Positions 28,571 to 56,789 of a DNA stretch of 64,000 nucleotides are shown here, one piece after another (within the stretch, counting starts at the first letter, position 1; each line of letters starts with the position of its first letter). The notes beneath the pieces are model-generated. The model did not search any database. It had not been told where the DNA came from and saw nothing but the letters and a program-made list of their open reading frames with translations. A program made the position numbers and the translations under genes. Origin of the DNA: Cupriavidus pinatubonensis (GTDB taxonomy: Bacteria > Pseudomonadota > Gammaproteobacteria > Burkholderiales > Burkholderiaceae). Where the stretch lies: the NCBI RefSeq assembly GCF_019602855.1, contig NZ_CP080767.1:806001-870000 (forward strand). The letters are read 5' to 3'.

Positions 28571-29617
28571 CTAGCGCAAACGGGACGCGTTCATATAGAT
28601 TACCCCATACCAACCCATGCCGGGGTAGGTTTCGTAGCCCGGCGTACGCGCAAAGGCGACCAGCCGGCCCGCCTTGTCCGTATAGAAGCCGGATGGGGCG
28701 TTCCCATCCTGGAGCGGGAACACCTCGTCGAGCACGCCGACGCCATCGGATGCGGCGATCACGCGGCGTCCGGAATCGAGCAGCAGGCAACGCGTGCCGC
28801 GCCATTCCTCCTGCGACAGCCGCACATGCTTCACCACCGCGTCGGCTTGCGGAGCCCAGTCGAAGAAGATCGCCAGCACGCCGATCGGCTCTCCATCGGC
28901 CTTGCCATCGGCGCGGATCGCGGTGGCGTAGGTGGCCACTTCGGACTGGTTCAGGAAGCGCGACACGGCGATGTCGTGCGAGATGTAGTCCTGGCCCGAG
29001 GCAGTGCCCATGGCGCGGCGAAACCAGTCCACGCCCGACACCATCTTCCCGGTCACGCTGCCGTAGGTGCCGGGCCGGCCGTTGGCCAGCACGCGGCCCT
29101 GCGCGTCGATGACCCACAGATCCAGATAGACCGTATAGCTGTCCAGGATCACGCCGAGCCGCTTGCTGGCCCACGCGCATGTCGATGGCTCAGGCTGCGC
29201 GGCGGCGGCCACGATGGCTGCGTCGGTGGCCCACCAGCGGACATCGCACGAGCGCTCGTAGAGGTTGCGGTCGATCAGTTCGATCATGTTCAGTGCCATG
29301 TCGGCAAAGCGCTGGCCCTGGTGGTCGCGCATCTGCCGGATCATGGCGTCGCCGAGCTGCCTCAGTTCCGCGATCGAGCCTGCGAGCTCGCTGTTGAGTT
29401 CGGCTGTGATCGCCGAGATGCGTTCGGACACCTGCTTGACCTGGCTGGCCACGACGCTGAAGCCGCGGCCCGCATCGCCGGCGCGCGCGGCTTCGATCAA
29501 CGCGTTCAGCGCCAGGAATTTCGTTTCGCGGTTGATCTCCGCAATGCCCGAGATCTTTCCGTCCGCGACGCGGCCGACGTGGTGGGACAGTTCAACGATG
29601 CGGTCGGCACTTGCCAA
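28571..29617 (-). CDS. Cytoplasmic chemoreceptor-like protein: methyl-accepting tip first, cache-like domain last
   Basis: 348 residues from TTG 29617, chosen because AGGGAG stands 7-8 nt upstream. Residues 10-65 hold a short methyl-accepting hairpin with the conserved tip E-I-N-R-E-T-K-F-L-A-L-N-A-L-I-E-A-A-R-A-G-class motif, which binds CheA/CheW in MCPs. Residues about 110-345 look like a Cache-type sensor (D-L-W-V-I-D-A-Q-G-R-V-L, D-W-F, I-G-V-L-A-I-F-F-D-W). There is no transmembrane segment, and the order is the reverse of classical MCPs. It likely senses a cytoplasmic ligand. It lies between the IS element and the GT41 gene but after a terminator. Confidence 0.75.
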   Translation of the reverse strand: MASADRIVELSHHVGRVADGKISGIAEINRETKFLALNALIEAARAGDAGRGFSVVASQVKQVSERISAITAELNSELAGSIAELRQLGDAMIRQMRDHQGQRFADMALNMIELIDRNLYERSCDVRWWATDAAIVAAAAQPEPSTCAWASKRLGVILDSYTVYLDLWVIDAQGRVLANGRPGTYGSVTGKMVSGVDWFRRAMGTASGQDYISHDIAVSRFLNQSEVATYATAIRADGKADGEPIGVLAIFFDWAPQADAVVKHVRLSQEEWRGTRCLLLDSGRRVIAASDGVGVLDEVFPLQDGNAPSGFYTDKAGRLVAFARTPGYETYPGMGWYGVIYMNASRLR

Positions 29618-29776
29618 TTGCTTTCTCCCTTTGATGATTATTCTTTCGGGCGCCTGATCGTGGCGAGGCGCCCTTGCTTCGGGGGAATGGCAAGATTTGT
29701 GCCAATCATTGCGCACTTTTGGTGCGTAGAGGGTGTGCTGTGGATTACTGCAAAGACCGATGGCGTCGCCGCAAAG

Positions 29777-29806
29777 AAAAAAGCCGCCCGGCATGCGCCG
29801 AGCGGC
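29777..29806 (-). terminator. Terminator after the GT41 gene
   Basis: GCCGCTCGGC/GCCGGGCGGC stem (one mismatch) with a 4-nt loop, followed on the minus strand by six T. Ends the glycosyltransferase transcript. Confidence 0.85.
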
Positions 29807-29829
29807 TTCTGCATGGAGCGCCGTTCAGC

Positions 29830-31665
29830 TCAGCCCAGGGCGCCGACCAATTGCGTGAACTGATCTTCGAGGTGGCCGACGAAGCGCGGCGTATCGAACA
29901 GCTTTCCGCTTTCCCGCACTTGGTGCAGTTTGTCGCGGATGCGACGGCAGCGTTCCGGAGCGTTGGCCAGAGCGACCGCGGTTTCCTCGTAGTCGTTCGG
30001 GCTGTAGGTGATCAGTTCGTCCAGTTCGGCAGCCGTAAGTAGTGCGCCGGCCATGCGCGACGCAAAGCTGCGGCCGGAACGGGTCAGCACCGGCAGGCCG
30101 GTCCACAGCGCATCATTGGCCGTCGTGCCCGCATTGAACGGGAAGGTATCGAGGAACAGGTCGGCAGCGGCGAAGCGTGCCAGGTAATTTTCCGGCGCAA
30201 CGCGTGGTGCGAAGATCAGGCGGCCGCCATCCACGCCCAGCTTTTCGGCTTCCTTGCGCAGGTTCGCCTCGGCCCATTCGTTGTCCGCCAGCAGCCACAG
30301 GACACTGCCGGGCACGCGGCTCAGGATACGCATCCAGGTGCCGAAGACCTCGGGCGTGAACTTGTAGTTGTTGTTGAACGAGCAGAAGACGAAGCCATCT
30401 GCCGGCAGGTTGCAGCTTTCGCGCGACGGGGGCGTGCCGGTGATTCGTTTGCGATCGCTGACCTGGTACACATCGGGCATGTACAGCGGCTTCTCGGAAT
30501 AGAAGCGCGCGTATTCTTCGGGGATCAGAAAGCGATCGGCGATGACGTAGTCGACAAACGGGAAGCCCGTGGTCGCGGGCAGACCCAGGTACGTGATCTG
30601 GATCGGGGTCGGGCGATAGGCGAGGATGCCCGCGCGTGCGCCGAGCGTCTGGCCGTGGAGATCGACCAGGATGTCGATCTCGTGCTCGCGGATCAGCCGC
30701 GCCGCAGCCTCATCGCTCATGCCCTGGATGCGCTCGAAGCGATCCATCGACGCGATAATTCGCTTGCGCATGGCCGAGTTGTCTTCGCGCGACCAGCAGT
30801 AGCCGTACACCTCGAAGCGGTCGCGGTTGTGCAACTCGAACAGCTCGGCCGTCAGCATGGCGACCGGGTGCAGGCAAAGGTCCGACGACAGATAGCCCAC
30901 GCGGATCTTCTTGTGGCCATACGGCTTTGCCGGGGCCAGCGTCGGCACGTTGCAGTTGATCTTGTTCGCCACGTAGTTCTGCGCGGCGGTGAGCTGTTCC
31001 TGCGGGTCGTCCGACAGGGCGATCATTGCCAGCGCTGATGTCGAGCGGCGCATCAGCTCGGGATCGACGCCTTCCACTTGCGCATAGACCGGCCATTCGC
31101 ACTGCTTGGCGCGAAGGAACACCCAGTGGTGCAGCACGTCCGGCTGGTTCGGCTCCATTTCGAGGCTGCGCTGCAGGTACACGAGCGCATCGGCATATTT
31201 CCGTTCGTTCTCGAGCAGGCGGCCCAGGTTGTTGAGCGCCGAAAGTTGCAGCGGGCGGTTCTCGGTGTCCTTGGCCGAGACGGTATTGGCAACCCACAGC
31301 CATTGGGCAATCGCCGCGCTGGGATTGCCGAGACGTTCGTAGACCAGTCCGAGGTTGAAATGCGGCTGGACAAAGGCGGGGGAGAGTTCGATCGCGCGCA
31401 GGTATGCCTGGCGGGCGTCTTCCAGCTTTTCCAGCGTGGACAGCGACGTGCCCAGATTGAAATGTACGAAGTGGTTCAGCGGCGTGTTGTTGTGCTCGAG
31501 CCAGGTCCGGTAGAGCACGCATGCCAGTTCATGTTGCCGGGCGGCTTCCAGCTGGCTGGTGTGGTGGAACAAGTCTGCCAGCGTGAGTTGCCCGCGCCAG
31601 GCCTGCAGCACCAGCGATGAATAGTCTGCCGTGGCCACGGCCACGCCTTGGTTCGAATCGTACAT
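29830..31665 (-). CDS. TPR plus GT41 glycosyltransferase (SPINDLY/OGT-like)
   Basis: 611 residues. TPR helices occupy about 60-200 (F-N-L-G-x-S-L-x-x-L-E-K-x-E-D-A-R motifs); the GT41 catalytic region covers 240-600. Visible landmarks: V-G-Y-L-S-S-D-L near 256, His266 in L-H-P-V-A-M, Lys435 in N-N-N-Y-K-F, and D-T-F-P-F-N-A-G-T-T near 505. His266 and Lys435 match the UDP-sugar binding positions of OGT; the usual second His of H-P-x-x-H is Met270. Family members add GlcNAc or hexose to Ser, Thr or Asn of proteins in the cytoplasm. ATG 31665 is preferred; the longer TTG start falls in a terminator stem. It follows the Ser/Thr-rich repeat gene. Confidence 0.88.
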   Translation of the reverse strand: MYDSNQGVAVATADYSSLVLQAWRGQLTLADLFHHTSQLEAARQHELACVLYRTWLEHNNTPLNHFVHFNLGTSLSTLEKLEDARQAYLRAIELSPAFVQPHFNLGLVYERLGNPSAAIAQWLWVANTVSAKDTENRPLQLSALNNLGRLLENERKYADALVYLQRSLEMEPNQPDVLHHWVFLRAKQCEWPVYAQVEGVDPELMRRSTSALAMIALSDDPQEQLTAAQNYVANKINCNVPTLAPAKPYGHKKIRVGYLSSDLCLHPVAMLTAELFELHNRDRFEVYGYCWSREDNSAMRKRIIASMDRFERIQGMSDEAAARLIREHEIDILVDLHGQTLGARAGILAYRPTPIQITYLGLPATTGFPFVDYVIADRFLIPEEYARFYSEKPLYMPDVYQVSDRKRITGTPPSRESCNLPADGFVFCSFNNNYKFTPEVFGTWMRILSRVPGSVLWLLADNEWAEANLRKEAEKLGVDGGRLIFAPRVAPENYLARFAAADLFLDTFPFNAGTTANDALWTGLPVLTRSGRSFASRMAGALLTAAELDELITYSPNDYEETAVALANAPERCRRIRDKLHQVRESGKLFDTPRFVGHLEDQFTQLVGALG

Positions 31666-31751
31666 AGGGGTTGTCGGATTAGGCCGGATTGCATGGAGGA
31701 TGCCCAGCTTTCCATGGTATTGGCCCCCCGGTACGGTGCGTGCCAAGAACA

Positions 31752-31789
31752 AAGGCCAGGTACGCCGCTACTTTGGCGTACCTGGCCTT
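31752..31789 (-). terminator. Intrinsic terminator after the repeat-protein gene
   Basis: Perfect 15-bp stem AAGGCCAGGTACGCC (31752-31766) with GGCGTACCTGGCCTT (31775-31789), 8-nt loop, then TTGTTCTT on the minus strand. It separates the repeat gene from the GT41 gene. Confidence 0.8.
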
Positions 31790-31880
31790 GAACTGCCATG
31801 CTACGGATGGCTACCGCGTTGCTTCGCCGCTTCCTGGCGCGGCACTCGCGAGAGCGCCGCGCCAAGGGCGGTTCAGCCGG

Positions 31881-34800
31881 TTACGCTCCGATATGCAGGT
31901 GCTGGATCTGATCGGTCGACAGTGCATTCACCTGGCTGTTGGTCAGGTATGCCACTTGCGCGCTCGACAGGGCTTCCAGTTGGGTCGTCGACATGTCGCC
32001 CACATTCAGACCGGAAATCTGGCTGGTCTTCAGCGCGGCGATGTCTTCGGTCTCCAGGGCACGGGTCTGGCTCGAGGTCAGTGCCGACAGCGCCGAGGTG
32101 CTCAGTGCCGCGGCTTGTGCCGTGGTCAGAGCGGCGACTTCGCTGGTGGTCAGCGTGACGGCCTGCGACGTCGTCAGGGCGGCGACCTGAGTGGTCGTGA
32201 AGACACCCACCTGGCTGCTCGACAGCTTGGTCAGGTCAAGTGCGGCGACCTGGCTGGTCTTCAGCGCAGCGACGTCTTCCGTGTCGAGGGCTTGCAGCTG
32301 ATCAGAGCTCATCGCCGTCAGCTGGTTGTTCGACAGCGAAGCCACCTGCTGATACATCATGGCCTTCACCTGGCTCGTGGACATGTCGCCGACGTTCAGG
32401 CCAGTGATCTGGCTGGTCTTCAGTGCAGCGATGTCTTCGGTTTCCAGCGCGAGGGTCTGGCTCGAGCTCATGGCGGCGAGTGCGCTGGTGGTCAGTGCCG
32501 CTGCCTGTGCCGTGGTCATTGCCGCGATCTCGGCCGTGCTCAGGGTGCCGATCTGGCCGGTGGTCAGACCTGCCATCTGCGTGGTCGTGAACACGCCGAC
32601 CTGGCTGCTGGAGAGCTTCGTCAGGTCAAGTGCAGCAACCTGGCTCGTCTTCAGGGCAACCACGTCTTCCGTATCCAGCGCCTGCAGTTGTCCCGAGCTC
32701 ATTGCCGTCAGCTGATTGTTCGTCAGCGCGGCCACTTGCTGGTACATCATGGCCTTGACCTGGCCCGTCGTCATGTTGGCGACGTCCAGCGCGGCGACCT
32801 GGTTGGTCTTCAGCGCGGCGACGTCGTCAGTGCCGAGGGCGGCGGTCTGGGCCGAGGTCAGGGACTTCACTGCGGCAGTGCTCAGTGCCGAAGCCTGGGC
32901 CGTAGTCAGCGCCTCGATTTCAGCGGTGCTCAGCGAAGTGACCTGAGTCGTATTGAGCGCGGCCACCTGGGCAGTGGTGAGGGCGCCGACCTGGCTGCTC
33001 TTCAGATTGGTCAGGTCAAGGGCTGCAACCTGGCTGGTCTTCAGGGCGGCCACGTTGTCCGTGGACAGCGACTGGAGCTGATCCGAGCTCAGTGCCTTCA
33101 GTGCGGCGGTGCTCAGTGCCGAAGCCTGGGCGGAGCTCAGCGCATCGATCTCGGCGGTGGTCAGCGAAGCTGCCTGAGCCGTGGTCAGTGCGCCAACCTG
33201 GGCGGCCGTGAAGACGCCAACCTGGCTGCTCGCGAGCTTGGTCAGATCGAGTGCGGCGACCTGGTTGGTCTTCAGTGCGGCGACGTCTTCCGTATCCAGG
33301 GCCTGGAGCTGCGAGGAGCCCATGGCGCCCAGCTGGGCCGAGGTCAGTGCGGTCACCTGCGTCGAGGTCAGGGCCTTGACCTGGCTCGTCGTCATGTTGG
33401 TGACGTCCAGCGCGGCGACCTGGCTCGACTTCAGCGCGGCGACGTCGTCGGTGCCGAGGGCAGCGGTCTGGGCCGAGGTCAGGGCCTTCACCGCGGCGGT
33501 GCTCAGTGCTGCAGCCTGTGCCGTGGTCAGGGCGTCGATCTCGGCGGTGCTCAGCGAAGCGACCTGTGCCGTGGTCAGTGCGCCAACTTGCGTGGTCGTG
33601 AAGGCGCCGACCTGGCTGCTCTTCAGGTTGGTCAGGTCAAGGGCAGTAACCTGGCTGGTCTTGAGAGCAGCGACGTTGTCCGTGGACAGCGCCTGGAGCT
33701 GGTCCGAGCCCATGGCCTTCAGGGCGCCGGTGCTCAGTGCCGAAGCCTGGGCGGAGCTCAGGGCGTTGATTTCGGCGGTGCTCAGCGTGACGGCCTGAGC
33801 CGCGGTCAGTGCGCCAACCTGGGCGGCCGTGAAGACGCCAACCTGGCTGCTCGCGAGCTTGGTCAGATCGAGTGCGGCGACCTGGTTGGTCTTCAGCGCG
33901 GCGACGTCTTCCGTATCCAGGGCCTGGAGCTGCGAGGAGCCCATGGCGCCCAGCTGGGCCGAGGTCAGTGCGGTCACCTGCGTCGAGGTCAGGGCCTTGA
34001 TCTGGCTCGTCGTCATGTTGGCGACGTCCAGCGCGGCGACCTGGCTCGACTTCAGCGCGGCGACGTCGTCGGTGCCGAGGGCAGCGGTCTGCGCCGAGGT
34101 CAGAGCCTTCACTGCGGCGGTGCTCAGTGCTGCAGCCTGTGCCGTGGTCAGGGCGTCGATCTCGGCGGTGCTCAGCGAAGCGACCTGTGCCGTGGTCAGT
34201 GCGCCAACTTGCGTGGTCGTGAAGGCGCCGACCTGGCTGCTCTTCAGGTTGGTCAGGTCAAGGGCTGCAACCTGGCTGGTCTTCAGGGCCGCGACATCGT
34301 CGGTACCGAGGGCCTGGAGCTGGTCCGAGCTCATGGACTTCAGCGCGGCGGTGCTCAGTGCGGAAGCCTGCGCCGTGGTCAGGGCGTCGATTTCGGCTGT
34401 GCTCAGCGTGGCAACCTGTGCCGTGGTCAGTGCACCGACCTGGGCGGTCGTGAAGACGCCGACCTGGCTGCTCGACAGCTTGGTCAGATCCAGTGCGGCG
34501 ACCTGGTTGGTCTTCAGTGCAGCGACGTCTTCCGTATCCAGGGCCTGGAGCTGCGAGGAGCCCATGGCGCCCAGCTGGGCCGAGGTCAGTGCCGACACTT
34601 GTGCCGAGGACAGGGCCTTGATCTGGCTCGTCGTCATATTGGCGACGTCCAGCGCGGCGACCTGGCTCGACTTCAGCGCAGCGACGTCGTCGGTGCCGAG
34701 GGCAGCGGTCTGGGCAGAGGTCAACGACTTCACTGCAGCGGTGCTCAGAGCCGAAGCCTGGGCCGTGGTCAGTGCGTCAATTTCGGCAGTGCTCAGCGAA

Positions 34801-36617
34801 GCGACCTGAGCCGTGGTCAGTGCGCCAACCTGGGCGGCCGTGAAGACGCCAACCTGGCTGCTCGCGAGCTTGGTCAGATCGAGTGCGGCGACCTGGTTGG
34901 TCTTCAGCGCGGCGACGTCTTCCGTATCCAGGGCCTGGAGCTGCGAGGAGCCCATGGCGCCCAGCTGGGCCGAGGTCAGTGCGGTCACCTGCGTCGAGGT
35001 CAGGGCCTTGATCTGGCTCGTCGTCATGTTGGTGACGTCCAGCGCGGCGACCTGGCTCGACTTCAGCGCGGCGACGTCGTCGGTGCCGAGGGCAGCGGTC
35101 TGGGCCGAGGTCAGGGCCTTCACCGCGGCGGTGCTCAGTGCTGCAGCCTGTGCCGTGGTCAGGGCGTCGATCTCGGCGGTGCTCAGCGAAGCGACCTGTG
35201 CCGTGGTCAGTGCGCCAACTTGCGTGGTCGTGAAGGCGCCGACCTGGCTGCTCTTCAGGTTGGTCAGGTCAAGGGCAGTAACCTGGCTGGTCTTGAGAGC
35301 AGCGACGTTGTCCGTGGACAGCGCCTGGAGCTGGTCCGAGCCCATGGCCTTCAGGGCGCCGGTGCTCAGTGCCGAAGCCTGGGCGGAGCTCAGGGCGTTG
35401 ATTTCGGCGGTGCTCAGCGTGACGGCCTGAGCCGTGGTCAGTGCGCCAACCTGGGCGGCCGTGAAGACGCCAACCTGGCTGCTCGCGAGCTTGGTCAGAT
35501 CGAGTGCGGCGACCTGGTTGGTCTTCAGTGCGGCGACGTCTTCCGTATCCAGGGCCTGGAGCTGCGAGGAGCCCATGGCGCCCAGCTGGGCCGAGGTCAG
35601 TGCGGTCACCTGGGTCGAGGTCAGGGCCTTGACCTGGCTCGTCGTCATGTTGGTGACGTCCAGCGCGGCGACCTGGCTCGACTTCAGCGCGGCGACGTCG
35701 TCGGTGCCGAGGGCAGCGGTCTGGGCCGAGGTCAGGGCCTTCACCGCGGCGGTGCTCAGTGCTGCAGCCTGTGCCGTGGTCAGGGCGTCGATCTCGGCGG
35801 TGCTCAGCGAAGCGACCTGTGCCGTGGTCAGTGCGCCAACTTGCGTGGTCGTGAAGGCGCCGACCTGGCTGCTCTTCAGGTTGGTCAGGTCTAGGGCTGC
35901 AACCTGGCTGGTCTTCAGGGCGGCCACGTTGTCCGTGGACAGCGCCTGGAGCTGGTCCGAGCCGAGGGCCTTTAGGGCGCCGGTGCTCAGTGCCGAAGCC
36001 TGGGTGGAGCTCAGGGCGTTGATCTCGGCGGTGCTTAGCGAAGCGGCCTGTGCCGTGGTCAGGCCCGCCACCTGGGCGGAGTTGAACGCGCCAACCTGGC
36101 TGCTCGACAGCTTGGTCAGGTCAAGCGCGGCGATCTGGCTGGTCTTCAGCACGCTGATGCCGCCGGTGCCGAGTGCCTGCAGCTGGTCCGAGCCCATCGC
36201 CTTCAGGCTGCCGGTGCTCAGCGCAGCGATCTGGGCGGTGCCCATGGCCGCAACCTCGGCCGTCGTCAGGGCCGCAGCCTGTGCGCTGCTCAGGGACGCC
36301 ATCTGGCCGGTGGACAGTGCGCCGACCTGGTTGCTGCTCAGGTTCGTCAGGTCCAGTGCGGCAAGCTGGGAAGTCTTTAGCGCAGCAATATCATCGGTGC
36401 CCAGACCCACCGCCTGCGCGGAGGTAAGGCTGGCAATGGCTGCGGTGCTCAAGGTTACGATTGCAGATGCACTGATCGCCCCAAGTTGGTCTGAATTCAG
36501 ACCGGCGACTTGCGCTGTCGACAAGGCTTGGACATCTGCCGTCGACAGGGATTGCATCTGCGCTGTTGTCAGTGCCGCGACTTGGGCCGCCGACATCGCG
36601 GAAATGATTGAAGGCAT
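31881..36617 (-). CDS. Giant octapeptide-repeat protein, Ala/Ser/Thr/Gln-rich
   Basis: 1578 residues, nearly all repeats. The unit is eight residues, consensus A-L-[ST]-[ST]-x-Q-[VLA]-x, about 160 copies. At 22 points the unit is stretched to 13 residues (A-L-D-L-T-[NK]-L-x-S-S-Q-V-G or A-L-D-V-[TA]-N-M-T-T-S-Q-[VI]-K). These define super-repeats of 77 or 53 residues. Only P2, no Cys or Trp seen, net acidic. No signal peptide, membrane segment or anchor; the last residues are H-L-H-I-G-A. I do not recognise a characterised family. Repetitive Thr-Gln proteins of this style are often labelled adhesin-like, without proof. The GT41 gene downstream could modify it. The start has only a weak AGGGG upstream. 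Confidence 0.85.
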   Translation of the reverse strand: MPSIISAMSAAQVAALTTAQMQSLSTADVQALSTAQVAGLNSDQLGAISASAIVTLSTAAIASLTSAQAVGLGTDDIAALKTSQLAALDLTNLSSNQVGALSTGQMASLSSAQAAALTTAEVAAMGTAQIAALSTGSLKAMGSDQLQALGTGGISVLKTSQIAALDLTKLSSSQVGAFNSAQVAGLTTAQAASLSTAEINALSSTQASALSTGALKALGSDQLQALSTDNVAALKTSQVAALDLTNLKSSQVGAFTTTQVGALTTAQVASLSTAEIDALTTAQAAALSTAAVKALTSAQTAALGTDDVAALKSSQVAALDVTNMTTSQVKALTSTQVTALTSAQLGAMGSSQLQALDTEDVAALKTNQVAALDLTKLASSQVGVFTAAQVGALTTAQAVTLSTAEINALSSAQASALSTGALKAMGSDQLQALSTDNVAALKTSQVTALDLTNLKSSQVGAFTTTQVGALTTAQVASLSTAEIDALTTAQAAALSTAAVKALTSAQTAALGTDDVAALKSSQVAALDVTNMTTSQIKALTSTQVTALTSAQLGAMGSSQLQALDTEDVAALKTNQVAALDLTKLASSQVGVFTAAQVGALTTAQVASLSTAEIDALTTAQASALSTAAVKSLTSAQTAALGTDDVAALKSSQVAALDVANMTTSQIKALSSAQVSALTSAQLGAMGSSQLQALDTEDVAALKTNQVAALDLTKLSSSQVGVFTTAQVGALTTAQVATLSTAEIDALTTAQASALSTAALKSMSSDQLQALGTDDVAALKTSQVAALDLTNLKSSQVGAFTTTQVGALTTAQVASLSTAEIDALTTAQAAALSTAAVKALTSAQTAALGTDDVAALKSSQVAALDVANMTTSQIKALTSTQVTALTSAQLGAMGSSQLQALDTEDVAALKTNQVAALDLTKLASSQVGVFTAAQVGALTAAQAVTLSTAEINALSSAQASALSTGALKAMGSDQLQALSTDNVAALKTSQVTALDLTNLKSSQVGAFTTTQVGALTTAQVASLSTAEIDALTTAQAAALSTAAVKALTSAQTAALGTDDVAALKSSQVAALDVTNMTTSQVKALTSTQVTALTSAQLGAMGSSQLQALDTEDVAALKTNQVAALDLTKLASSQVGVFTAAQVGALTTAQAASLTTAEIDALSSAQASALSTAALKALSSDQLQSLSTDNVAALKTSQVAALDLTNLKSSQVGALTTAQVAALNTTQVTSLSTAEIEALTTAQASALSTAAVKSLTSAQTAALGTDDVAALKTNQVAALDVANMTTGQVKAMMYQQVAALTNNQLTAMSSGQLQALDTEDVVALKTSQVAALDLTKLSSSQVGVFTTTQMAGLTTGQIGTLSTAEIAAMTTAQAAALTTSALAAMSSSQTLALETEDIAALKTSQITGLNVGDMSTSQVKAMMYQQVASLSNNQLTAMSSDQLQALDTEDVAALKTSQVAALDLTKLSSSQVGVFTTTQVAALTTSQAVTLTTSEVAALTTAQAAALSTSALSALTSSQTRALETEDIAALKTSQISGLNVGDMSTTQLEALSSAQVAYLTNSQVNALSTDQIQHLHIGA
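33181..35900 (-). repeat. Long near-identical tandem DNA repeats inside the octapeptide gene
   Basis: Anchor sequences recur at about 33211, 33832, 34843 and 35464, i.e. steps of 621, 1011 and 621 bp (207, 337 and 207 codons). The blocks 33181-33798 and 34813-35430 are almost identical over 618 bp, differing in the antisense frame by a single residue. Such blocks are substrates for recombination and for assembly collapse. Confidence 0.85.
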
Positions 36618-37017: not shown

Positions 37018-37815
37018 CTATCGCAGACGATCCCGTACCTGTGCGAAGGCCGAGGTGTAGTCGCCGAATCCCTGCTCGCGCATGGCGATCTTGAGCGCGT
37101 CGCTCAGGACCGCATCGAGCTTGAACTGCCCCAGCCGTGTTGCGGACCACGCGCACGCAAAGGTGCTGTAGGCCTTGACACGCCACGCCGGGTTCAGCGT
37201 CAGCAGCAGCGACGCAATACGCTCCATCAGGAAAACCTTGCGCTGTACCTGGCCGGGATAGGGCGTAGCAAAGGTCAGGGCGGACTTCAGTTCGCTGTCT
37301 TCACCCTCGCAGATGGCGAACAGCTGCTCGTTCAGTGCAAGCCACGCGCGCCAGAACGGCGGCTTCGCGGCGAAGTAGTTGCTGAATACGATCTGGCGCG
37401 AATCCATGATCAGGCCGGCCAGGTCCGCCTGAACGCCGGCAAACTCAAGGAAGGCCTGGCTGGCTCGGAGAAAGCCAGGTTCGAACAGTTCTTCCTGCTC
37501 GAACACATTCAGGAAAAAGGCGCCCATATCAGGTTGCGGGCTGAACGTGACCACATCGGTATCCGCGGGACACGATTCGATGAAGCGCACGACATCGGCG
37601 TGGCCGAGCCCGGTCTTTTCCAGGAAGCGCGGCGAAAAGAAGCCGTAGTAGCAGTCATCCGCCAACTCGTTCTCGAGCAGGAATTTGCGCATGGGCCAGT
37701 ACTCGCGCCAGTCATGGCGGTCGTGGCCCATGTTGATCAGGGGCAGGTATCCGGGATCCAGGCGCTGCAGGACGGCTTCGGAATACGCAATCTGGTAGAG
37801 CTGGATTTGGCTCAT
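37018..37815 (-). CDS. Conserved hypothetical protein, possibly glycan-related
   Basis: 265 residues from ATG 37815. No signal peptide or membrane segment. The N-terminus (Y-Q-I-A-Y-S-E near residue 8, then L-D-P-G-Y-L-P-L, W-R-E-Y-W-P-M-R-K-F-L and Y-Y-G-F-F-S-P-R-F near residue 58) resembles a family I associate with bacterial glycosyltransferase clusters, in which an N-terminal Y-Q-x-x-Y-x-E and P-L-D/N segment recurs; I cannot verify this. No DxD-type glycosyltransferase motif is evident. It is upstream of the octapeptide-repeat gene and GT41 gene in the same direction, which suggests a shared role. Function unknown. Confidence 0.7.
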   Translation of the reverse strand: MSQIQLYQIAYSEAVLQRLDPGYLPLINMGHDRHDWREYWPMRKFLLENELADDCYYGFFSPRFLEKTGLGHADVVRFIESCPADTDVVTFSPQPDMGAFFLNVFEQEELFEPGFLRASQAFLEFAGVQADLAGLIMDSRQIVFSNYFAAKPPFWRAWLALNEQLFAICEGEDSELKSALTFATPYPGQVQRKVFLMERIASLLLTLNPAWRVKAYSTFACAWSATRLGQFKLDAVLSDALKIAMREQGFGDYTSAFAQVRDRLR

Positions 37816-37953
37816 GAAATAGGATCCAAGGCGTGATTTGCCAGAATCCGGTGATTCTATGAGCCGGGATCGGCGCGCCATCTGGCGAACAGAGCCCGAT
37901 TGATGGGGTATTTGGGCTGGCGAATGACGCCCTGGCGACGGGAATGAGCCGGA

Positions 37954-37986
37954 AAGGCGGTTCGCCGGGGAGCCGAACCGCGCCTT
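37954..37986 (-). terminator. Probable terminator after ribE
   Basis: GGTTCG/CGAACC extended by AAGGC/GCCTT with a 2-nt bulge, followed by a short T stretch on the minus strand. It sits 18 nt after the ribE stop and would stop transcription before the following unrelated genes. Confidence 0.5.
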
Positions 37987-38004
37987 CCCCGATCGTTGCA
38001 CGGA

Positions 38005-55577: not shown

Positions 55578-56789
55578 ATGCCTGTCCGAATGCCGCGCCC
55601 CATGACGACCGCTGTTGCCTATCCTTACCAGCCGGTGAAGGAGCGGGGGACCCTGCGTTCCTTCCTGCTCGCGCTCCTCATGCACCTGCTGCTCGGCATC
55701 GTGCTGTACTACGGCGTGCATTGGCAGAGCAGCACGCCGGTCGGCTCCGAAGCCGAGTTGTGGGACGAAATCCCGGCCACGACCGCGCCGCCCCCGCCTC
55801 CGCCTGCGCCCGAGCCGGTGGTCCAGCCGCGGCCCGCGCCGCCGGCGCCCGAGGTAAAGAGCAAGATCGAGGAAGACGCCGATATCGCGCTTGAGCGCCA
55901 GAAGCGCCGAGCCGCCGAGCAGGCCGCCAAGGAAGAGGCTGCGCGCAAGGAAGCCGCACGCAAAGAGGCCGATCGCAAAGAGGCCGATCGCAAAGAGGCC
56001 GAACGCAAGGAAGCCCAGCGCAAGGAAGCCCAGCGCGAGGAAGCGGAGCGTAAGGAAGCGGAGCGTAAGGAAGCGGAGCGTAAGGAAGCGGAGCGTAAGG
56101 AAGCGGAGCGTAAGGAAGCGGAGCGTAAGGAAGCGGAGCGTAAGGAAGCGCAACACAAGGAAGACGCGAAGAAGAAGGCCGCGCAACAGGATCAGCAACG
56201 CCGCGAGCAGGCCGAGCGCGAGCGCAAGGAAGCGGATGCCAAGGCAAAAGCCAAGGCAGAGGCCGACGCGAAGGCCAAGGCTGAAGCGCAGGCCCAGGCT
56301 AAGGCGAAGGCTGACGCCGAAGCCAAGGCCAAGTCCGAAGCTCAGGCGAAGGCCAAGGCGGATGCGGAAGCCAAGGCCAAGCGCGAGGCCGCAGCGAACG
56401 CGCAGCGCAAAGGCGAACTGGCGCGCCTGCAGGCGCTGGCCGGCGGTGCTGGTGCGGGCGGGCAGGGCGGCGGCGGTGTGGGCAATACCGCGGGCGCCGG
56501 TGCCGGCGGCGGTGGCAAGGCCTCGCCGGGTTACCCAGACCGCGTGCGCCGCCGCGTGAAGCCGAACATCGTGTTCACGGAAGACGTGCCTGGCAATCCG
56601 ACCGCGGTGGTCTCGGTGCAACTGGCGCCGGACGGCTCGCTGATGTCGGCGCGCCTGTCCAAGTCCAGCGGCAATTCAGCCTGGGATAACGCCGTGCTGC
56701 GCGCGGTCGAGCGGTCGGATCCGCTGCCGCGCGACGAGAACGGCAAGGCGCCCGCGAGCTTCACCATCACTTTCCGACCCAAGGATTAA
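55578..56789 (+). CDS. tolA: Tol-Pal system protein TolA
   Basis: 403 residues, or 395 if the ATG at 55602 is used. One transmembrane helix (about residues 28-45), a Pro-rich stretch, then a very long charged helical domain (about 95-275) of K/E/A/R repeats, including seven exact A-E-R-K-E pentads, and K-A-K-A-x-A blocks. A Gly-rich hinge precedes the C-terminal TonB/TolA-like domain, with Y-P-D-R-V-R-R and W-D-N-A-V-L-R-A-V. TolA links the inner membrane motor to Pal in the outer membrane. Confidence 0.95.
   Translation: MPVRMPRPMTTAVAYPYQPVKERGTLRSFLLALLMHLLLGIVLYYGVHWQSSTPVGSEAELWDEIPATTAPPPPPPAPEPVVQPRPAPPAPEVKSKIEEDADIALERQKRRAAEQAAKEEAARKEAARKEADRKEADRKEAERKEAQRKEAQREEAERKEAERKEAERKEAERKEAERKEAERKEAERKEAQHKEDAKKKAAQQDQQRREQAERERKEADAKAKAKAEADAKAKAEAQAQAKAKADAEAKAKSEAQAKAKADAEAKAKREAAANAQRKGELARLQALAGGAGAGGQGGGGVGNTAGAGAGGGGKASPGYPDRVRRRVKPNIVFTEDVPGNPTAVVSVQLAPDGSLMSARLSKSSGNSAWDNAVLRAVERSDPLPRDENGKAPASFTITFRPKD
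56043..56147 (+). repeat. Seven exact copies of a 15-bp unit in tolA
   Basis: GCGGAGCGTAAGGAA repeated seven times without a mismatch, encoding A-E-R-K-E. Gain or loss of units keeps the frame and changes TolA helix length by 5 residues. Confidence 0.95.

Follow-up and report, generated by a model that had tools for sequence, protein, structure and literature searches.

Bacterial homologues of OGT are common, and natural substrates are, to our knowledge, known for few of them. HMW1C and the glycosyltransferases of serine-rich repeat proteins act in the cytoplasm; in HMW1 the modified residue is Asn and secretion is of the two-partner type, serine-rich repeat proteins leave through accessory Sec, and we know of no helical octad in either kind of protein. 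Both are described as glycosyltransferases with a dedicated adhesin (HMW1C/HMW1 in Haemophilus and the serine-rich repeat adhesins; PMC3012730, PMC6973325, in the portions of these papers used here). In Caulobacter, FlmG is a soluble TPR-glycosyltransferase that modifies an exported fibre protein, flagellin, in the cytoplasm (PMC7591256, in the part drawn on here). In the text of the review PMC12645811 that was open to a term search, OGT and GT41 have zero occurrences and FlmG has one.

For the repeat with which this paper deals, the ALTTAQ repeat, the Pfam entry PF20080 as retrieved consists of a name and a 38-position profile, with function or partner absent. Text searches of open-licence PubMed Central found no functional description of PF20080, and no publication on ALTTAQ, on HeliScrew/9zem or on GT41 together with such a repeat. 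The strings pf20080 and 9zem do occur in the literature, in what look like chance matches from the titles and abstract beginnings, and the string matches with PF13844 or Glyco_transf_41 are, in the portions of text returned, plant papers.

Here we analyze a window of 64,000 nucleotides from Cupriavidus pinatubonensis (NZ_CP080767.1, positions 806,001 to 870,000), in which a very long ALTTAQ gene stands beside a GT41 glycosyltransferase gene. Our best explanation of the locus as a whole, to which we give a probability of about 0.55, has three parts. The repeat protein would form a rod, a screw-like coil with one short alpha helix for every eight residues. The adjacent TPR-GT41 enzyme would O-glycosylate this rod in the cytoplasm, the main acceptor being an exposed Ser/Thr at position 4 of the octad, the first residue of the helix, giving a regular array of as many as about 170 sites. 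Once glycosylated, the rod would probably be exported by a type I secretion system (T1SS) and become an extracellular or surface fibre. The repeats, the family, a confident fold prediction, the gene pairing and the correlation between position 4 and GT41 are computed in this analysis; that GT41 modifies this protein, that position 4 is the acceptor, that the rod is exported and that it has a surface role we infer.

Results

A known repeat family with a nearly private punctuation

The octad-repeat open reading frame at 31881..36617 (minus strand, ATG start) encodes 1578 residues. Segmentation by dynamic programming divides these into 182 octads (1456 residues), 160 of them plain and 22 carrying a preceding five-residue insert, which makes 22 thirteen-residue units. 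The inserts (variants ALDLT, ALDVT, ALDVA and GLNVG) follow one another at distances of 77 or 53 residues and span 31998..36359 on the minus strand, from residues 87-91 (36345-36359) to residues 1536-1540 (31998-32012). Besides the inserts, the only residues outside the octads are 1-6 and the final six, and the N-terminus, MPSIISAMSAAQV, runs directly into the repeat. The octad consensus is A-[LM]-[ST/K/G]-[ST]-x-Q-[VLI]-x, with Ser or Thr at position 4 in 170 of the 182 octads; Cys and Trp are absent from the protein and Pro is confined to position 2. An earlier, sequence-only reading of this DNA had described about 160 octads broken by 22 thirteen-residue units, super-repeats of 77 or 53 residues and this same composition, all of which the segmentation and composition bear out.

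That reading also took the protein to be undescribed, with no characterised structure for its unit, and named a match to a known repeat family as the observation that would speak against novelty. Such a match exists. The protein hits PF20080 at E 7e-285 and 918.8 bits (gathering cut-off 26.4 bits) in 74 separate stretches, and is a member of this catalogued family. A solved octad protein exists too: PDB 9zem, 'HeliScrew4', which reads as a designed protein judging from its name, is the closest solved sequence and the sole close one found (phmmer E 2e-12 over 109 residues). Other Pfam rows (AbiEi_4, CAAP1 and others, two of them above cut-off) we set aside as composition noise, no single stretch passing by itself, and likewise the Toll-like receptor and LRR rows from database searches with the protein.

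At the DNA level, the gene contains repeats of 231 and 390 bp, which together with the 74 PF20080 stretches place the repetition well beyond chance, and the segment 33096..34326 recurs at 34728-35958, shifted by 1632 bp with 97% identity over 1230 bp. Copies this close to identical indicate that the array expanded recently. A 1401-aa frame at 31689-35894 on the plus strand also stands open opposite the repeat gene, probably as a by-product of the repeat's codon usage, and database matches on that strand are the antisense of the octad repeats themselves. One might take the whole frame for a repeat artefact and no real gene, since the antisense frame is likewise open and the DNA is partly near-identical. 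We give this next to no credence and regard it as refuted in practice: the family match is confident with relatives in many genera, the N-terminus is common to relatives, and the partner gene is conserved alongside.

The punctuation is what sets this member apart. By an anchor method, 21 of 156 spacings here are thirteen residues long, against 15 of about 15,300 when one open reading frame is taken from each of 77 relatives (top-scoring loci of the genome-collection scan described below). Among the relatives compared, the 13-residue spacing is thus nearly private to this protein.

The octads are predicted to form a regular helical solenoid

AlphaFold2 models of the two ends, together 630 of the 1578 residues, are confident: residues 1-330 reach a mean pLDDT of 94.7 and a pTM of 0.82 (alignment of 35 N-termini), and residues 1279-1578 reach 94.1 and 0.83 (alignment of 23 C-termini). 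In the models, almost all octads form a single helix four to six residues long. In this register, position 3 (Ser/Thr/Asp and others) would be the helix cap and positions 4-8 the helix, while the Leu at position 2 probably belongs to the core. Where a five-residue insert separates two octads, the models show either a loop or a helix of three residues. We are highly confident in the predicted solenoid with one short helix per octad, bearing in mind that AlphaFold2 can over-regularise repeats. The fold is probably a screw as in the solved octad protein, the form of 9zem being taken from its name and sequence. The very regular solenoid that the earlier reading had expected agrees with both regular end models (pLDDT about 94), and full disorder, which it had named as evidence to the contrary, is not predicted in the 630 residues modeled.

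Fold searches of a PDB library extending to 2026-04-08, and of a viral library, gave no confident match to a natural PDB fold. As 9zem is not among the rows of these searches, the likeness to HeliScrew4 is one of sequence comparison. Low-ranking rows include mesothelin (TM 0.24-0.31) and beta-catenin (Z up to 8.0), values which are not decisive for repeats; we attribute the beta-catenin and importin rows (VIA-align, Z up to 8.0, rmsd mostly 9-11) to generic repeat similarity.

ALTTAQ proteins are sparse and widely scattered

ALTTAQ genes are carried by 4 of 100 genomes sampled in the host's own family, by 20 of 398 across the phylum (at E 1e-7), by 36 of 247 in a second family and by 6 of 385 in one class; the host genome has a single locus. 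A scan of a genome collection, from which we took the best 80 of at least 564 confirmed stretches, yields 77 distinct loci, which are not independent, since several share a genus and at least three pairs share a genome (one genome also recurs across two samples, as L067 and G037). Among the matches listed are Rhizobium, Pseudomonas, Duganella, Massilia, other Burkholderiales, Acetobacteraceae, Methylomonas, Oryzomonas, Holophagaceae and others, with protein lengths from below 900 to above 5,000 residues, and many of the complete proteins among them share an N-terminus like M-T-S-I-I-S-S-L-S. One of the Pseudomonas strains with such a locus is P. putida ASAD (L094).

Several features of individual relatives deserve mention in their own right. 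Some repeat proteins (L103, L078 and other loci) carry a C-terminal domain of 250-300 residues with EF-hand-like motifs (LDLNGDG...); the two such domains scanned have zero NCBIfam model matches. In a further family, f47 (G140, G200, G204, G216 and others), ALTTAQ open frames reach 6436 aa, while frames of up to 3781 aa carry several GT41 domains, with up to 41 GT41 matches per genome. At L206 (NZ_CP047266.1), where the repeats are spread over three open reading frames, a repeat protein is labelled 'heme utilization protein', and our searches found no basis for that label.

A TPR-GT41 gene accompanies the repeat gene

Directly downstream of the repeat gene, on the same strand, lies the gene of the proposed modifying enzyme (29830..31752, minus strand; 640 aa as listed from a TTG start). 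Its product scores 277.7 bits against Glyco_transf_41 (cut-off 25) and exceeds the cut-off of several TPR models. Going by eye through the printed alignments, we find SSDxxxHP, YK and TTxxD retained, which we take to be the catalytic and donor-site residues His498, Lys842, Thr921/922 and Asp925 of OGT; the His that precedes TT in OGT is Gly here. As an HMW1C-type N-glycosyltransferase the protein scores far too low (27.1 bits against the NCBIfam NGTferase cut-off of 1000).

The pairing recurs well beyond this genome. In the host's own family, GT41 lies beside ALTTAQ in all four carriers, the three other enzymes being 37-66% identical to that of the window. Among the 77 best loci, GT41 is visible in 45 and within 1 kb in 44; on the same strand it is downstream in 32 and upstream in 2, and in the remaining 10 it is on the opposite strand. 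Where at least 3 kb is available on both sides, GT41 falls within 1 kb in 27 of 33 loci. In the second family, ALTTAQ and GT41 lie within 20 kb of each other in 19 of the 24 measured genomes that have both genes, against 0.5 expected by random placement (linkage being read from coordinates and the GT41 count per genome estimated from domain matches).

Could the enzyme instead modify some other target, such as flagellin, pilin or other surface proteins, and be adjacent by virtue of a shared surface structure? FlmG, a TPR plus GT-B protein, modifies flagellins in Caulobacter (PMC7591256, in the part drawn on here), and in the host's family GT41 is found in 46 of 100 genomes against 4 of 100 for ALTTAQ, which implies that most GT41 enzymes have other jobs. 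Against this, the only GT41 gene of the host genome is the one adjoining its ALTTAQ locus, and the correlation described below is centred on one residue of the repeat. We consider this alternative unlikely, and judge it likely, from gene order and sequence, that the GT41 enzyme acts on the repeat protein.

Ser/Thr at position 4 tracks the presence of GT41

Among the first 23 ALTTAQ genomes checked, two are without GT41, and their octads have mostly Pro or Ala at position 4, an observation that prompted a test in the second family. There, 31 of the 36 ALTTAQ genomes were measured over about 3 kb around one match each (no locus was returned for G520, G602, G624, G677 and G696, of which G520 and G677 lack GT41), and 9 of the 36 are without GT41, 7 of them measured. 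The Ser/Thr fraction at position 4 is 0.21-0.61 in these 7 genomes against 0.58-0.98 in the 19 linked genomes (p 2e-5 by genome, 0.0011 by genus), and the contrast persists when all 24 GT41-bearing genomes are used (p 2.5e-4). Of the other positions, position 1 gives p 0.018 and the remainder are not significant. Leaving out the genome that raised the idea, we obtain p 7e-4 (6 vs 19 genomes) and 0.004 (3 vs 12 genera), both computed from rounded position-4 fractions.

Some details of this test matter for how it is read. Five genomes with GT41 away from the measured ALTTAQ stretch were kept outside the linked group: G583 is at 0.48, while G500, G647, G665 and G574 are at 0.86-1.0; in G574, a different ALTTAQ stretch lies about 9 kb from a GT41. 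Our first octad pattern admitted off-register octads (Ser/Thr at positions 6 and 7) and separated the groups fully (0.17-0.42 where GT41 is absent vs 0.43-0.71 where linked); the stricter pattern, from which the reported numbers come, shows slight overlap with the same trend, and some GT41-lacking genomes reach about 60% Ser/Thr at position 4. With three to four GT41-lacking genera in the main test, phylogeny could be behind part of the correlation.

Two other sets of genomes bear on the same point. In five further genomes from another sample, the position-4 fraction is 0.96, 0.95 and 0.68 where linked, 0.22-0.25 with a GT41 about 365 kb off, and 0.29 with GT41 lacking; four fit clearly and one (G901) is neutral because the fraction in its GT41-distant gene (0.54-0.83) does not fall below that in its linked gene (0.68). 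We also searched whole genomes for GT41 at loci where none was visible, covering 19 loci in 18 genomes; 20 of the 32 GT41-less loci had been chosen with their position-4 values known beforehand, the other 12 being left out. GT41 is missing in 2 of the 18 genomes, L073 (0.45) and L084 (0.36), which have the two lowest values of that set (the rest are at 0.63-1.0), a coincidence expected 1 time in 153 by chance. L084 was assembled from a metagenome, and GT41 may be missing there because the genome is incomplete.

A counter-case is G441, in which the Ser/Thr fraction of the GT41-linked gene is just 0.37 at position 4, against 0.77 at position 5, and that of the unlinked gene is 0.12 at position 4; Ser/Thr at position 5 is high in several other families as well. 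Weighing these observations, we lean modestly toward position 4 as the main acceptor, a proposal drawn from residue statistics.

The persistence of ALTTAQ genes in GT41-lacking genomes means that modification cannot be essential to all members, and it is the starting point for a different account, in which these are exported fibres or adhesins that work without glycosylation and the link to GT41 is a lineage habit. The 9 second-family genomes without GT41 favor it, four of which (G545, G585, G655 and G711) have ALTTAQ frames of 1419-2639 aa. So does HeliScrew4, whose position-4 sites mostly have no Ser/Thr: they are mostly Pro, so Ser/Thr is not needed there for such octads. The linkage, however, is seen in Rhizobium, Pseudomonas, Burkholderiales, Acetobacteraceae and some non-Proteobacteria (Holophagaceae, Oryzomonas), a spread too wide for one lineage habit, and we hold this account to be improbable beside glycosylation of the rod by its neighbor.

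A further gene and hairpins around the pair

Upstream of the repeat gene, on the same strand, is a 265-aa protein of no known family (37018..37815, minus strand; open reading frame listed as 37018-38001), with no Pfam, NCBIfam or PDB match. Its relatives among the 77 best loci are confined to L108, where one comes right after GT41, and L115, where one is fused to GT41 with a second copy present. Among 72,556 plasmid records the sole match is on a Rhodovastum plasmid, in a gene whose annotation reads methyltransferase and which has GT41 and ALTTAQ as neighbors. This protein may extend or alter the glycan.

Between the repeat gene and GT41 is a terminator-like hairpin with a 15-bp stem (31752..31789, minus strand), a possible attenuator; none of 40 simple shuffles reaches its stem length. 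Of 36 loci examined, the window included, 18 have a stem of at least 9 between the two genes; the sequences differ and a T run is not present in all. Such a hairpin could lower the amount of enzyme relative to substrate. A second terminator-like hairpin after the GT41 gene (29779..29810, minus strand) is weak, as the stretch has 2 such sites against an average of 2.2 in shuffles.

Elsewhere in the window, the open reading frame at 28571-29794 (minus strand), just downstream of GT41, encodes part of a chemoreceptor signalling domain and has a dCache match that stays under the cut-off; the ALTTAQ locus on a Pseudomonas asturiensis plasmid has two chemoreceptor genes too. Short-period DNA repeats of 15, 18, 24, 48 and 54 bp lie at 55933-56417, inside a 403-aa open reading frame (55578-56789).

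Type I secretion genes lie near some relatives

Genes for HlyD, ABC or TolC of the T1SS type fall within 8 kb of 22 of the 77 best loci (genes were assigned by cluster, one representative per cluster being classified); the other 55, many of which break off at contig ends, show none in that range. On the Pseudomonas asturiensis plasmid, the ALTTAQ frames (one of them labelled 'heme utilization protein'), GT41, TolC, HlyD and ABC are contiguous, and one relative (L131) has RTX repeats. In the 1578-aa protein, Pfam finds neither RTX nonapeptides (HemolysinCabind) nor any recognised secretion domain. A representative T1SS ABC protein searched against the host genome at E 1e-30 has no match in the window; its closest hit elsewhere in the genome, 33% identical, lies about 172 kb away from the repeat gene. 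The case for export of the 1578-aa protein thus rests on its relatives. Gene neighborhoods make type I export of the family reasonably likely; for the 1578-aa protein, by analogy, we put it at a little under even odds.

The lack of a Pfam secretion domain and of a T1SS ABC gene nearby would also suit a scaffold that stays in the cytoplasm, such as a platform to which the TPR domain of the GT41 enzyme binds. We find this very unlikely, since a sizeable share of the relatives have T1SS genes alongside, one relative has RTX repeats and the Ser/Thr arrays are regular.

Discussion

What appears new here is not the repeat but the general pairing of ALTTAQ with GT41 and its residue-level signature. 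If the pairing holds, it would supply a function for a Pfam repeat for which none was found, and it would offer dozens of enzyme-substrate pairs with one predicted acceptor position per octad, natural controls in the form of GT41-lacking genomes with more Pro or Ala at position 4, and a regular, tunable glycan-bearing scaffold. More tentatively, and with rather less confidence than we have in the reading of this locus, the relatives may together represent a widespread unrecognised system: an alpha-helical, screw-shaped rod of 1,000 to more than 5,000 residues that would receive an O-glycan on each octad, at the first helix residue, from a dedicated GT41, sometimes with a partner of unknown family, and leave by T1SS. 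If true, bacterial mucin-like glycoproteins would gain a new architecture.

HeliScrew4 has octads that are mostly A-L-[ST]-P-[ED]-[QK]-[IVF]-A in a register identical to that of the 1578-aa protein, but its positions 4 and 5 are mostly Pro and Glu/Asp where ours are Ser/Thr and mostly Ala/Ser, and it is 120 residues long against 1578. Within PF20080, the five-residue punctuation is rare. The enzyme resembles OGT (E 5e-88 to an OGT entry), XcOGT (4e-86) and SPINDLY (6e-53) in having TPRs and a GT41 catalytic domain, and differs from them in that its gene is paired with that of a repeat protein. Type I secreted RTX adhesins are likewise long repeat proteins, and T1SS genes lie near 22 of the 77 best-matching relatives; the 1578-aa protein, however, has no RTX nonapeptides and its repeats are helical by prediction. 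The nearest working analogue is FlmG with flagellin, as presented in the part of PMC7591256 used here: there the substrate is flagellin, whereas here it would be a proposed alpha-helical octad rod.
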